Shown in pieces: positions 30,711-38,600 of a DNA stretch of 64,000 nt. Made by a program: the position numbers and the translations under genes. Under the pieces are notes generated by a model. It had not been told where the DNA came from. It did no database searches and worked only from the letters and a program-made list of their open reading frames with translations. How positions within the stretch are numbered: position 1 is the first letter of the stretch; each line of letters begins with the position of its first letter. The stretch is taken from positions 8,825,001-8,889,000 of the forward strand of contig NC_091673.1 in the NCBI RefSeq assembly GCF_042453785.1. The letters run 5' to 3'. The stretch comes from Malus domestica (lineage: Eukaryota > Streptophyta > Magnoliopsida > Rosales > Rosaceae).

Positions 30711-33285
30711 ATGCTTGACTATTAGAAACTCTATGAAATTTAGAGACCTTTTAATGCTAGACTTATATAGATTTTTTTAGAGTTAATGATTGACTTTTGA
30801 AGGGTTCAAAAGGAATTTAACACACTTTGTTATTATTACTCTTTTTTTCACTGAAAAATGTAATTTTGCTTTTTCTGCTATGACCAAAATGGTTAGAATT
30901 TGAAAGAATCCTTAACACATCAACATCATTTTTTTTAATTCCAAATTCTTGTAAATCGTATGTTTCTAATGTGGTGGTTAGGGTGGTGGAGGAGTGGGGG
31001 TTTGGGTGGTGGCAATGGGTAAGGTAAGACGAGAGTAAAGGTGGCGATCATGTTGATGGTGGTGTTAGTAGTGGTCATGGGTGCGGGTGGCAACACTAAG
31101 GTGGTCGTACTAGGTTGTTGTGATGATGAGTGTGACAAGGCGGTGGTAGGAGAGGGAGTGGTGAGAGTGGTGGAGGCAAGGTAACATGGTGGTACTATAG
31201 GTGGCAATCATGGTGGTTGTGTTAATGATGCGCAATAGAAAGATAGTTGTAGGAGGTTTTGGTAAGGTGATGATGAGTATGACAAGGTGGTGGTCAAATA
31301 AGTGATATGATGATGGCGGTGGGGACAGTAGTCGTGATGATAGTGGTAATGATGGTGGATATGTCAGCAACAGGGTAGTAGGGATGGTTATGGTTAAGTG
31401 ATGGTGAATGGTGACAATATGGTGTTGTGAAAATGGAAAAAGTGATCAAAATCTATGAAAGTCCATCAAAATCTTAGGGGAAGAAGTATTTTCTATGATA
31501 TTGTTAACGTGGGGCACTTTTAGGCCCACCGAATAGCACATGCCAAAAACAAAAGGCCACGAGCAGCCTAAAGCAAAGCTAAAGCCCAAGGGAAATCAAG
31601 AAGCCCAAGGTCCAAAGAGTTTAAGGAAAGAGGCTCCCGATCACTCAAGTCGACTGCCTGCGAGCTTAGTCCAACTAGGTTATGAAAGGTGTTTTTCGAC
31701 TGCCAAAGGCATGTAAGCAGACTGGCAACTTTATGATGTGAGTATCGATGAGCAAGTTTACTCCAGTGTCAATCAATCCACATGGCGATTCACAATCAGT
31801 GGTAGAAGCCTAGGATTAGATGTAAAGGTAATTAGAACGACGCTCAGAGAGATGGAGTTGGATAACCAAGGCTGAGCAAGACGCTCGGCATGCATCTGAA
31901 AAGGCGTGCAATCTCGATTGAACACATGTTACTTCACCGCAAATGTGCCGTTGATGGGTGAAAAGGTGTCAACACACTAAGCTATGCAAACAACGCATTA
32001 AGTGCCAAGGAAGTGAAAGGAGGTGAACCCAAGGCTTTTAAGCACATTGAGGTTGGACAACTGAGGAAAGGGAGAGTATTTGTAATAAATTGTGCACTAT
32101 TTTATTCTTGAAATCAAAATAATCCAAGCAACACACTAGATGTAGCCCAGTATTGAGGAGTGAACCACTTAAATCTTTGAGTCCATTTTTTCTAACCCAT
32201 ATCTAAAAGCCCACCAACGGTTCAATATTTTAATTTGTTAACTTGTAAGTTGTGAGCGTTAACATACATAAAATATAATATAAAAATCTCGTTAAAATGA
32301 ACAGTACTGTGAGCTTTTCGTTAAAGTTCCATTTTTTAAATTCTATAAAATTAATAAACTTTTGAATAAACATGGACTTTTGTAGACTTGCAAAAAGTTA
32401 TAATTGAATATCACGAGATTTTTAAAGATTTTTTAGAAGTCATAAAAGGTTTTTATTTAATACAGGATAACTTTTATTGACTCTATAAAAATCTGTATTG
32501 AAAACGTTTTAAGAAAATTCCATTAAACTCCATAAATAATACACCCCCTAGTTACTGTATCGGAACAAAGGTCAAGTCATTAGATGTACATAAGATATAA
32601 AAGTTGTACATTTAGAGCTTTTTTTTTCTTTTCTTAATACAAGCGATAATACTATTCTGATCTAGACTAAGGGGGAGGGGAAGAGTTTGAACAGGTGATG
32701 CGGTTGGTTAAAAAAGAATGTCATAATCACCTAAGCAATCCATTATATATTTAGAATTAAAATAACATATGAGTTGCATATTTTTATAAAGAGGTGAATC
32801 ACCAAACTCAAGAGATTTGGGCTAGAGTCATTAGCATATAGGCCTGCCATATGCTTGTTCATAAAGTGAACTCATTGGAAAAAATAATAATAGTAGGTCA
32901 ATTGGTACATCTATTAGAAACTTTAGATATGTTTAAATATCACTGTAGGTGATGCTTCAATAAAAAATAGTAAACTTTAGATATGTGAAATTACACTATT
33001 GCCATTTTTTTTGTGTGCTAGAGGACTAAATAGTTTTTTTTTTTTACCCTCTTTTGGATGACAAAGATTGTTCTATTAATAAGTTTAATTTTTAGTATTT
33101 AATTAATTTGGATGACAAAGATTGTTCTATTAATAAGTTTAATTTTTAGTATTTAATTATTTTTTTAATAATAAAACTAGTTTGGCAATATTTTCAGTTA
33201 AAAATAACAAAAAACTAAAAGTCAAATTTTGAAAACAAAAAAGGTAGTTTTTTTTTTTTTATCAATTTCAATAAAAGTACAAACA
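30711..33285. other. Intergenic block with a GGT-rich low-complexity tract
   Basis: At 30965-31440 the plus strand is dominated by 'ggtggt' and 'gtgatgat' triplets, so the proline/threonine/histidine-rich frames on the opposite strand are artefacts. At 31495-32230 there is higher-complexity sequence (gcccaagg, aaggcgtgcaatc) that may be an old retroelement piece but has no readable domain. Near 32287-32335 a short 'gttaaaatgaacagtac' motif resembles the repeats at 53.6 and 54.9 kb. A 46-bp local tandem duplication ('ggatgacaaagattgttc') is at about 33055-33160. Confidence 0.5.
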
Positions 33286-34801
33286 AAAATTAAAGAGTAA
33301 ATTACATAACAACCTTAGATTTGAGATCTATTACAATCTCATACAATATCTTTAAAACATTTCACTTTTATACTTCATCTACTATTTTATTTCAATATCG
33401 TACCTTTGTTGCATATTTTATCTTTTGATTTATTAAAAGTTGACGTGGCTGCTACATTTATATCACATTACTGCCAAATGTGTGCCACATGTCTACCAAA
33501 TATGTGCAGTGGCAAATTTTTTTTTTTAATTTATAAAAAAAAAAACTGAATCTTCTCATAAATAAAAAAAAAAAAAAAAAAAAAAAAACTGACAACGCAG
33601 AACCCCCACCTCCCCGCAACCTCTCCCTACCCCTCTTCTCCCTCCCGAGCCTCCCAACCACCTCCCTCCCCTCCACTCTCTTCACCTCCCTTCCCATCCA
33701 AAAACACACACTGATCTTCACTCTCACAGCCCCATCGACTCCGACACTGCTCTGCACTCTCAGGCACTACATTCCCTAACCCCATCTCGGCACATCGACC
33801 GCCTGATCAACTACAACCAATCGCCGTCCAGGACCATCTACCCTGATAGGTTCATGCCCAGTAGATCCGGTTCCAACTTCCTCCTCTTCGACATCTCCAA
33901 TACTCCATCTGAGGGCCGCGACGACTCGTCAAGCGCCTACGGCACTCTCCTACGCGCTGCCCTCTTTGGACCTGACTCCGTCTGCGTCGTCCCTCCGGCG
34001 ATGCTTGAGAAAAGGAGCGCGATTCAGATGAACCTTCCCAGCCCCAACATCTTCTGGTAATGCACTCGCCTTCCCCTTTTGGGTTCGATGATGTGGTCAC
34101 CGGAGTTCACCATAGCCCCGTCAAGGCTCCTCTGAAGGTTCCCCGGTCGCCTTATAAGGTGACTTTCATCACTTTCTAGTCTTTTGGCGATTTGGGTTTG
34201 GTTTGATTTTGGATATTGTGAATTGGTTTTTTTTTTTAATTAATTTATTTTTTATATATATACGGAAGTTTTGTTTCTTGTTTAGGTTTTGGATGCACCT
34301 GCTTTGCAGGATGATTTCTATCTGAATCTTGTCGATTGGTCTTCGCACAATGTCTGTTGGGTTGGGAAATTGTGTTTATTTATGGAATGTTGATGGGGTG
34401 GGTTTTTGGATGGGAGGGAAGGTGAAGAGAGTGGAGGAGAGGGAGGTGGTTGGGAGGCTCGGGAGGGAGAGGAGGGGTGGGGAGGGGTTGCGGGGAAGGT
34501 GGGATGGGTTATGTGTTTTTCCAGTTTTTTTTGTTTTTTTAGGAGATTCAGGTTTTCCAAAAAAAAAAATTTTTTTTTTGCCACGTGGCACATATGTGGT
34601 ACAAATGTGGCAGTCACGTCAGCTCTTAACGGATCAATGGATGGAAAACGTAACGGATGTACTATATTGAAATAAAATAAAGTTGTACTATATTGGAAAA
34701 TGTAACGAAGGTAATATAAACTGAAATGTTTTAAAGATGTTGTATGAGTTGTAATAGACTTCAAATCTGAGGAAGTATTATGTAATTTACCCAAAATTAA
34801 A
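33286..34801 (+). mobile_element. Pack-MULE carrying a CDH1/FZR (CCS52A) gene fragment
   Basis: The element is 33295-34792 (1498 bp). It is flanked by perfect 9-bp copies of aaaattaaa (33286-33294 and 34793-34801), the length made by Mutator-like transposases. The left end reads GAGTAAATTACATAAC and the right end, inverted, reads GGGTAAATTACATAAT. The inverted arms stay alignable for about 400 bp each (to about 33710 and from about 34385), through 'aacatttcac', 'gacgtggctgc' and a purine-rich inner zone with 'gtgaagagagtgga'. Between the arms lies a fragment of a CDH1/FZR-type cell-cycle gene with its intron. There is no transposase, so it is non-autonomous and was moved in trans. Confidence 0.88.
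33770..34392 (+). pseudogene. Captured fragment of a CDH1/FZR (CCS52A-type) APC/C activator gene
   Basis: The first segment (33770-34158) encodes SRHIDRLINYNQSPSRTIY, then DRFMPSRSGSNF, then SSSAYGTLLRAALFGPD. After a frameshift near 34058 it continues PFGFDDVVTG..HHSPVKAP..KVPRSPYK. A GT..AG intron (34159-34285) follows, then VLDAPALQDDFYLNLVDWSS, and, after another frameshift, VGLGNCVYLWN. This order is that of plant FZR/CCS52A proteins: the C-box (DRFIPSR in relatives) and linker up to the first WD40 blade. The WD40 propeller that binds substrates is absent. The intact family activates the anaphase-promoting complex and drives endoreduplication. The first in-frame ATG is inside the C-box (33854). 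An in-frame TAA follows NIFW (about 34058), so no long protein is possible. The assignment rests on remembered family sequence but the match is extended. Confidence 0.85.
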
Positions 34802-35663
34802 ACGACAATTTAGTATATGTATTTGGTTAAATTTTCATTAATCTCAAAATTGCCCCAACTAGTATTAACAAGACGGGTAATGTTAAAGAGATTAAAATTG
34901 TAGACAAAATTTGTAAATTAAATGAGATGGAAGTTAATAAATGAGTTATTGCTTAAGCGTTAATAAACAGACTCATTTCTTATTAGTAACACATGATTAG
35001 TTTGTAAATTTTGTCTTGCTAGCATTATTCTTAACAAGAATTTTGTATTGAAATGTAGATATTGAAGCTGTTAATTCATGAGTATATTATCAAAACAAAT
35101 ATCAGTGCAATTAAGAGTGGATTTGATAGATAATTGTTGTACTTCTCAAATGTGAGACTACTTTTCACATCCTTCTTGGCTTGTATCGAGTCAACTCACT
35201 CGAACCACCAACAATTATTCTTAGACTTTTTGTCATTCCAAAAGCAACTCCGAGCATGTTTTCCCAGTGCTTTTCTGCTTTGCTTTTTTTAGCCATTCTG
35301 GAATTAGCTCCGAACTGCCGCGCCAATTGAGTGAGTAACCGCCAGGGCCATGCACGGTGCACCACCAACGGTGCAAGACGCCGTGTGAATGCCCATTGTT
35401 ATCCACGTGCCTCTCACGTGCAAAACTTCCATCCTAGTTTTATCTCTGTTTATGTGACACAGTCGCGCCACTTTTGTTCCCGAACTTCCGGGAGTGACAT
35501 AACCGTCCGTCTTCTTCTTCCCTCTCCGTCGTCGTTTCGATTTCTCCTTCCAATTTCAAAATCCTCTGAAATTTTCTCGCATTTTCCCAGTCCCCAGACA
35601 AACCCTAACCCAAAAAAACCCACAATCCGTCGCTGTAAAATTTCCCGCATTGCCCTTCGAACC
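34802..35663 (+). promoter_or_regulatory. Upstream region of the MORC gene
   Basis: Between the Pack-MULE and the MORC start codon. Composition shifts from AT-rich to CT-rich from about 35500, typical of a plant 5' leader (ttcttcttccctctccgtcg). The frame upstream of the chosen ATG stays open to 35331, but the ATG at 35664 has a strong context (accATGGcc). No TATA box was identified with confidence. Confidence 0.4.
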
Positions 35664-38600
35664 ATGGCCTCCAGTGCCGTTAACGTCAAGCAAGAACCCT
35701 CCGAGAAACCCTACCAAATCCCCAACCTTCTGCCAATCCCATTAAGCAGCGATAGTAGCAGTAGCAGTAGCAGTAGCGCCAGTTCCGTCAATTCTTCCGA
35801 CATCGAAGGCCTTGAGACCAATTCCTTGTTCGATTCCGTGACGAGTAAGTTGAACGGCGACGATCGCGATTTGGCGGATGGAGGGGATGATGCTCCGGCG
35901 GCGAAGAAGGCCAAACGCGACGGTGAAAGGGGGTTCGTGTTGCCGCTAGGGTTTCTGCGTCCCCTCCCGCCGTTGGAATTGTCCAAGGAGTTGCCCCTGG
36001 CTCTGGTTTTGCCCGACTCGACAATGTGCTTGCCGAGTGGGTCCGGTTGTAATAACCAGGTGGGCCCGGTTATAAGGGGATGCAAGCAGTTTTGGAAAGC
36101 AGGAGATTATGAGGGTGACAGTGGAGGCATTGCCATTTCTGGGTTTTCGTCTGGTAAGTTAGTGCTTCTGGCTTTTTGTTTTTGTTTACCAAGTGTTTGA
36201 CGATTTGTTTTCTTGCTCTGCAAGTCTTTTTTCATTGGAATCTTGACCTGCATGTCTTTGTTGGAGTGTTTTAGGAGAGTTTGATGGTAATTTGCTAATT
36301 GTTTTTGGGTGTTTTGGATTTTGCAGCTGGCATGGACCATGTTAGGGTTCATCCCAAGTTTCTCCATTCAAATGCAACCAGCCATAAGTGGGCTCTGGGA
36401 GGTACATTGTCCCTGAAGTTGTGAACGATGGATTACTTGTTTTTTCGTTTCCTCGAATGAAAAGAATCTGGCTATGCAATACTGGAATTTGGCTGACTGT
36501 GATCTTCTGTTTGCAGCTTTTGCGGAGCTCCTAGACAATGCTTTAGATGAGGTTATTGAACATATATATGTATATATATATTTTATTTTTTTCAAAAATT
36601 CAAGGAATATGTAAGTGCGTTTTGAATTGTAATGTCTTTGTTCGTCTTGACTATTTATGTTGGCCAGGTCTGCAATGGGGCCAACAATGTTTGTGTTGAC
36701 GTGGTGAGAAACAAAAAAGATGGTAATGAGATGTTGATGGTTGAAGGTATGCTTCTCCATAGTTTTGTCATATTTCTTCTCACACATGGTGAACTATTTG
36801 TATCGATAGGGTGCAGGCATTACCATTTATGATTTATAATTGGTTCTTAGTTGACTGATTTAGTAGTGGCCTTTATTTGCATATACTGTTTCGATATTAG
36901 TTATATTGGTATCCAGGAACCAGGGTAGCTATAGGTATCACAAAGTGGTGTTCGCAGTTCCATCTGTGTTCTAAGACATATGTGCTCAGCTTGAGTTTTT
37001 AAGATCACAATTGCTTTTTCCCTTCCCCCTTTTTTTTTTTTTTTTTTTTTTTGCTTTGACTTGAAATATCTCAACTCTTTGTACAAATGATAATAGTTGA
37101 TTTTTACATTTGATTAACCTTGTTTTTACTACAGATGACGGTGGTGGGATGACGCCTGAAAAAATGCGAGAATGCATGTCTCTTGGGTATTCTGCAAAAA
37201 GCAAATTGGCAAATACTATTGGTCAATGTGAGCTTCTATATTACTTGCATTATACTATAGAGTTTCCTGTGTAAATGGGTAGAGAATAACTGCTATAACA
37301 GAGAAGATTGTTTCACTAATAATTTTCTCATTCTTTTAATATTTTCTTTTTCAGATGGCAATGGGTTTAAGACTAGTACTATGAGGCTTGGAGCAGATGT
37401 AATAGTGTTTTCTCGTTGTGAGGGGGAGGATGGGAGAAGGTTTGTTTTTAATCTGTCTCTGTTAAACTTAAACCCTAGCTTGGAAACTTGATTCATTTGG
37501 TCTTTGAAGTCTGAAGTTTTACATGATTGTAGTATAAGGACTTGCAGAAATGTGGCAGTCTTTTGTTACTTTTTATTTTGTCATCTACCTCATGTTTTTA
37601 TTTTGTCAAATTGAAAAGTAACCGACTCATACTCTTTTCTCTTAGACCGACACAGACCATTGGAGTGCTATCCTACACCTTTTTGAGGGGTACTGGAAAG
37701 GAAGATATTGTGGTTCCCATGGTAAGCAGAGTTTCTTTTTTTCTTTTTTGGTGGTAAAATAATGACAACATTTTGACTATCCCTGATTTTATAGCCAGGC
37801 TTTCGGGTTTATAGTTTTGTACTGTAACTTTCATAATTAGCACCAGACGCTACTTAATCCTTTCCTTGTATTGTGATTTTTGAACTGTATTGCTCTGATC
37901 AAGTCAGTATGTTATTACTAATGCATGTCTTAAAGTTTAAGACTTATTAAAAGATGAAATAAAAATAATTCAGACAAAAGGTAGCTTTAAATTTTTTTTA
38001 CAATGAAGTGCTTGTTACCACAAGTTGTGATGTCCTTTTTTCCAGGAAGTTTAGTTAAGGACCATTTTTAATAAATTAGTGATGCATTTCGTAAGAGAAG
38101 CTTATCACTGGGAAAATTGGAGAAATGATCTTAATTATCAGTCTCGCATTAATTTCTCTCCATTATTCCATTAATTATGATTTATTTTTACTGTAAGATT
38201 GATTATGAGAAAAGAGGCCAAGGTTGGAACAAGATGATGCGGGGTTCTCCAGATGACTGGCATAGGAACTTAGCAACCATAGTGCAGTGGTCTCCTTATT
38301 TAAGCGAAGAAGATCTTCTTCAGCAGGTAATTCTTAATTTTTCTTTTCAAATTCTGTTTTTGAACTTGGCATTTCTCATTTGGTCTACTTCCCTTTTGCC
38401 TTTTCAAGTTTGTAGCATAATCTGACTACAAGAGAGAGAGAGATCCAACTTAGTGTGTTTTTGCTTCTTATTAATGCACAATATTCTACTCTTAAGGTTT
38501 GGTTAGTAACCATTATTGTTGTCTCAAATTTTCTATTATTTATATCTTTTTGAGACTTGGGTTGATGACTCATCCTCTTTTGCTCAAAATTGCTCTGAAT

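Follow-up and report, generated by a model that had tools for sequence, protein, structure and literature searches.

The element at 33295-34792 (1498 bp) of the window, by which we mean the whole 64-kb stretch of DNA that was analysed (C13:8825001-8889000), is very probably a non-autonomous Mutator-like element that carries captured host DNA, a Pack-MULE. Its arms, which have the ends typical of a family and stand within a 9-bp target-site duplication, enclose genomic DNA of an FZR/CCS52A-type gene located on contig C4, or of a very close relative of that gene. The searches that extended beyond the window covered the 651 Mb and 19 contigs of the genome.

The original prediction described perfect 9-bp target duplications and inverted arms of about 400 bp, and both are present. 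The duplication AAAATTAAA stands at 33286-33294 and again at 34793-34801 (the outer limits correspond to C13:8858286-8859801), features to which no strand is assigned, and on each side it directly abuts an element end (GAGTAAATTACATA on the left and GGGTAAATTACATA, read from the right, on the other side). The left terminal inverted repeat occupies 33295-33709 on the plus strand and its inner edge, which arm comparison shows to finish in CATCCAAAAACACAC, merges with the cargo; the right terminal inverted repeat occupies 34398-34792 on the minus strand. In an inverted alignment, 413 nt of the left arm (33297-33709) and 393 nt of the right (34398-34790) match over 440 columns with 70.2% gapped identity, and the score of 336 compares with 19-28 in mononucleotide shuffles (n=30). 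A failure of the arms to align, which had been named beforehand as a result that would refute the reading, did not occur. The identity is patchy: complementarity is 91% in an inner block of 106 nt, 76% in a middle block of 94 nt, and 94% and 88% in outer blocks of 31 nt and 24 nt. With arms only 70% alike overall, either the element has a considerable age or the two arms derive from different copies. Target duplications of 9-11 bp and arms of roughly 100-500 bp are given as the marks of MULEs in the part of PMC3310237 used here, and the element displays both.

Between the arms lies a piece of a host gene (33704-34389) that is made up of part of the donor 5' UTR, exon 1, intron 1 and part of exon 2. 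All four are on the plus strand and were delimited by alignment to the intact gene on C4: the 5' UTR piece ACACACACTGATCTT at 33704-33718, exon 1 at 33719-34158, the first intron, with its GT and AG retained, at 34159-34285, and the portion of exon 2 at 34286-34389. The original prediction had already recognised coding segments with a GT..AG intron, and both are confirmed by the alignment to an intact gene. The prediction's description of the cargo as the N-terminal half of an FZR/CCS52A protein was too generous, since exon 1 and most of exon 2 amount to roughly 40% of the protein; the cargo also begins 15 bp upstream of the start-codon region, in the donor's 5' UTR, and is badly broken.

When the genome was searched with the whole element, one full-length place was found together with six others that match the cargo at 77-89%, and there was no second copy of the element among the 40 of 2208 candidates that were scored. 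The best of these six is C4:9435393-9436087, from which it differs by 32 mismatches in 661 aligned bases (95.2% identity over 33719-34389, intron included). An intact paralogue on C6 is more distant than C4 (71 of 659 bases differ), and an intronless copy on C11 differs at 78 of 543. Three truncated copies differ from the cargo by 26-31% over the full comparison, an overestimate, since their upstream parts have no homology to it. In the interval where they can be aligned (33950-34389), differences from the cargo number 20 in 430 positions for C4 and 46 in 419, 52 in 416 and 42 in 375 for the truncated copies. In this same interval, 13 sites unite the cargo and C4 against the truncated-copy consensus and three unite the cargo and the truncated copies against C4; two of those three are changes of C4 alone because C6 agrees with the cargo. 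Site 34187, at which the cargo shares a G with all three truncated copies while C4 and C6 have C, is in small conflict with a plain C4 origin.

Every one of the nine exon queries, N-terminal exon through last WD40 exon, is matched in the genes on both C4 and C6, although the queries were taken from C4 itself so that its 100% score is true by construction. Four of five exon frames of the C4 gene have the CDC20/Fizzy WD40 model as their best Pfam match (E 1.6e-13 to 3.8e-27), under the whole-domain cut-off because single exons were submitted, and the fifth, of 37 aa, has no match. The N-terminal 202 aa match a fizzy-related protein in the PDB (E 2.6e-30). We take the donor to be of the CCS52A rather than the CCS52B type. 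Alignment of the cargo to the FZR/CCS52A genes of its own genome, which had been suggested as a check, has in this way led to a donor that possesses all of the downstream WD40 exons and is matched through the intron, and that is the independent parental copy expected of a Pack-MULE.

The cargo keeps intron 1 with its GT and AG, and bases of that intron are common to the cargo and C4; because of this we conclude, as had been proposed, that the capture was from genomic DNA. Reverse transcription of an FZR mRNA into a MULE is an event of a kind that does occur in this genome, as the intronless FZR copy at C11:15.8 Mb attests, but the intron in the cargo rules it out here and we assign it practically no probability. 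The intronless copy itself (L013:4658-5394, at C11:15.83 Mb) has exons 1-3 fused and contains a stop; it is closest to the C6 gene (50 of 607 bases differ) and is, judged from its sequence, a processed pseudogene. The three truncated copies (L011, L012 and L014, at C11:20.98, C5:24.6 and C15:39.3 Mb) are broken too, retain intron 1, and have upstream parts unlike those of the intact genes.

Compared with the C4 gene, the cargo has suffered deletions of 13, 1, 6, 22 and 5 bp and has a premature stop at 34058-34060. The 13-bp deletion takes the donor ATG region and follows directly on the 5' UTR piece; those of 1, 6 and 22 bp, and the stop, are in exon 1; that of 5 bp is in exon 2. The 1-, 22- and 5-bp deletions shift the reading frame. 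With the ATG region deleted, the frame shifted and a stop in exon 1, the cargo is unable to make protein, and it has no open frame with the WD40 propeller of a functional FZR/CCS52A protein. The two frames of at least 100 aa within the element and the 116-aa cargo frame gave no Pfam match at E 0.1, and Rfam returned 0 matches at the gathering score for 33200-34900.

With the C6 gene as outgroup, 21 substitutions fall on the element branch and nine on the C4 branch, two being ambiguous, and the divergence on the element branch is 3.5% (600 columns where C4 and C6 agree). At about 4e-9 substitutions per site per year, the rate taken from part of PMC11197308, the cargo and its donor would have separated roughly 9 million years ago (a range of 5 to 13 if only counting error is considered). 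This date is an upper bound for insertion at the present site because it refers to the split from the donor gene. On the coding strand, the element-branch changes in 33719-34389 relative to C4 include 10 of the type C>T and 0 G>A (p 0.005 given the base make-up), and five of the 10 C>T changes sit in CG, although the numbers are small. A methylation mark was considered as the cause of this one-sidedness, but methylation alone would affect both strands.

FZR sequence between two MULE arms might also be the remains of a local gene, a tandem or segmental duplicate that decayed in place and happened to be flanked by two MULE copies. Arms that are only 70% alike could stem from two insertions, and the truncated FZR copies on C11, C5 and C15 stand without enclosing arms. 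Against such a history, the 9-bp duplication outside both arms is perfect, and both cargo junctions lie at the inner-edge motif CATCCAAAAAC(C/A)CAC, which is seen on one side in 11 of 24 sister elements. Continuity of the FZR segment with WD40 exons had been named in advance as the observation that would point to a decayed gene, and in the 64-kb window the donor-exon queries matched exons 1 and 2 and nothing past exon 2. The absent WD40 exons and the perfect duplication led us to reject a decayed local gene, to which we give very little probability. A search with the flank at 34802-37200 for a homoeologous empty site returned only a short repeat among the 40 of 1086 candidates scored, where such a site may have been crowded out.

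The junctions also allow the capture to be considered as a process. At the left seam, 33704-33718 matches the C4 5' UTR and the next 13 donor bases, including the ATG, are absent; the donor sequence starts inside the CAC of the arm inner edge CATCCAAAAACCCACC, an edge that 11 of the 24 scanned sister elements also show, with small variants, on one side. At the right seam the donor match ends at 34389 and the arm starts at about 34394. The short matches at both seams would be consistent with a template switch at the inner edge of each arm. Gap repair, or such a switch at short CAC/TG matches, may have brought a copy of the 5' part of the gene between the arms; the element would then have been mobilised to its present site by a MURA-type transposase acting in trans, and would have decayed there as a non-coding passenger, probably methylated.

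The ends of the element belong to an abundant family. Its 17-base end GGGTAAATTACATARTA has 993 exact matches in the genome (502 and 491 on the two strands), and the reversed control has 0 on either. At least 30 plus/minus pairs of neighbouring ends lie within 5 kb of one another (from 100 of the 993 places), and the elements they define are 439-3500 bp long. We examined 34 loci, consisting of the FZR element and 33 sisters, of which 25 were kept for their clean ends and a 9-bp duplication with 0-1 mismatch and nine were set aside. With a further element, L081, included, 20 of the 26 have perfect 9-bp duplications and six have one mismatch, whereas mismatched pairs of flanks (n=648) gave one perfect duplication and 20 with one mismatch; in this comparison the members had been picked for clean ends, the duplication itself was one criterion for their coordinates, and two of them, L030 and L031, represent one insertion event. 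The interiors of the sisters fall into several groups without common sequence, and the FZR element is alone in its group.

When 10 frames from 10 sister elements were compared with Pfam, four matched above the curated cut-off (L029 and L034, plant U-box ARM; L046, ANTH; L030, CAP_N of CAP), one matched below it (L020, aspartyl protease) and five had no match. Since four of the 10 frames come from other gene families, gene capture looks like a habit of this end family. The two sister cargoes that we looked up both have sources on other contigs: for L034 the candidate is on C5 (92% over 271 of 428 bases), and L046 matches C15 at 87% over bases 11-382 of 389 and C13 at 82% over bases 100-389. A search with the arms for sisters bearing other cargo had been recommended, and it has yielded many sister elements with 9-bp duplications, several of them with other cargo. 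Together with the C4 donor and the retained intron, the occurrence of the arms on sister elements supports the earlier interpretation of the locus as a Pack-MULE capture. Interior GC is 0.48 in the FZR element and 0.44-0.61 in the 25 kept elements, as against 0.369 for the window, which is a comparison with the window and not with genes in general, and the interiors include some C-rich arm sequence. Capture of GC-rich sequence by Pack-MULEs has been reported for rice and maize (PMC3310237 and PMC4858842, each in part), and dicot GC is described as less variable in the portion of PMC3310237 used.

Several members of the family deserve description in their own right. L030 and L031 (C10:22.03 and 21.97 Mb) lie about 57 kb apart and contain, besides the CAP_N frame (Pfam, L030), a stretch that resembles the aspartyl-protease-like interior of L020; because their interiors are 99.7% alike and they share the duplication TTAATTTTA, they represent a segmental duplication and not two insertions. 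In L081:67-3566 (C1:24670666-24674165) family ends 3.5 kb apart, with the duplication TAAAAAGTA/TAAAGAGTA (one mismatch), enclose an uninterrupted frame of 332 aa whose C2H2 zinc-finger match of 24 bits is just under the cut-off of 25. Two direct repeats of 0.7 kb, 87.5% alike, flank this frame, and copies are found at 11 kb distance (97%) and on C7 (82%); L081 may be a MULE with a whole gene inside it or, alternatively, two MULE copies on either side of a native gene. A family end also occurs at L009:772-959 (C4:9430771-9430958; E 5e-56), some 1.4 kb past the final exon that was located in the C4 donor, and a whole family element (L014:7062-8437) lies some 0.6 kb from the truncated FZR copy of that locus.

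The FZR element contains a host gene fragment and no transposase, as a Pack-MULE does. The MULE domain PF10551 is plentiful in the genome, with at least 151 matches (150 of 482 candidates scored), and an end profile detected no family ends within 1.5 kb on each side of the best 30 of these loci. On C1 two family ends lie 11 kb from each other and were considered as the limits of an autonomous partner; the longest stop-to-stop frame in the first 10 kb of that interval, the far end excluded, is 141 aa. That no transposase with these ends was identified at the best 30 MULE-domain loci leaves a small chance that the element is a terminal-inverted-repeat transposon of another superfamily that also makes 9-bp duplications; the 9-bp duplications in 25 kept elements and the long arms are the marks of MULEs given in part of PMC3310237, and they argue for the Mutator-like assignment.

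A MITE-like, short dispersed repeat lies just downstream of the element (34870-35036) and recurs with 76-85% similarity at 39 other places among the 40 scored candidates out of 1086, and a 54-bp tandem duplication, 98% identical, lies 135 bp upstream (33053-33160). The likely start of a gene with a GHKL ATPase domain is 0.87 kb downstream, the gene extending from 35664 to about 41400; HATPase_c_3 matches it at E 2.3e-17 when four pieces are joined by eye and at 0.0015, under the cut-off, with one piece. We take this gene to be MORC-like. MORC proteins act in transposon silencing.

Could the fragment act on its donor? Transcripts of the cargo might give rise to small RNAs and through them reduce or alter CCS52A expression, an effect that we think improbable. 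Over its aligned bases the cargo retains about 95% identity to the C4 gene, and a potential to regulate parental genes has been named for Pack-MULEs in the excerpted text of PMC3310237; on the other side, the 40 of 2208 candidates scored include no second copy of the element. A hairpin of the arms alone would not make FZR small RNAs because the FZR sequence sits between the arms. Slightly more doubtful still is the fuller proposal that transcription starting in the arms or in neighbouring sequence reads through the FZR piece and gives small RNAs, or a truncated CCS52A-like transcript, that tune endoreduplication via the C4 gene, in which case the captured fragment would regulate cell size in trans.

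That Pack-MULEs capture genes is well known from plants, and only the FZR/CCS52A example appears to be undescribed. The original prediction knew of no description, and a search of the open-licence PMC literature for FZR capture by a Pack-MULE or Mutator-like element likewise found none; with the end sequence GGGTAAATTACA, the matches listed from that literature were all biomedical. By itself this capture changes no picture, being broken and having no second copy among the candidates scored. It is of value as a clean and roughly datable gene capture in a dicot tree, for which donor, intron and the two junctions are all legible, as is a large family of sisters. Table 4 of PMC3310237, a source seen in part, counts 2853 Pack-MULEs in rice and 276 in maize; for dicots its counts are low, at 46 (Arabidopsis) and 220 (tomato). 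A family with 993 exact termini and varied host genes is well suited to counting the capture of gene starts by MULEs in a dicot.

The FZR element resembles the Pack-MULEs of rice, maize, Arabidopsis and tomato, as portrayed in excerpts of PMC3310237, in being non-autonomous and in having long inverted arms, a 9-bp duplication and a host fragment between the arms. It is unlike them in its FZR/CCS52A donor, in its plant lineage and in that no autonomous partner was located, and the comparison was made by description. Falling Stone (FaSt) of Prunus, 349 bp long, is likewise set beside it by description: the excerpt of PMC13359793 presents a short MITE and mentions no gene cargo, but FaSt is of the Mutator class, is non-autonomous and comes from the same plant family as Malus. 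Tomato PM-ZIBP, in the same part of PMC3310237, has 14 copies, 13 of them with tandem arms, while the FZR element has single arms and no second copy among the candidates scored. The PM-ZIBP elements are 944 to 1372 bp long with AT-rich duplications, among the rows listed there, and what they share with the FZR element is the essential arrangement of one captured host fragment held between MULE arms.
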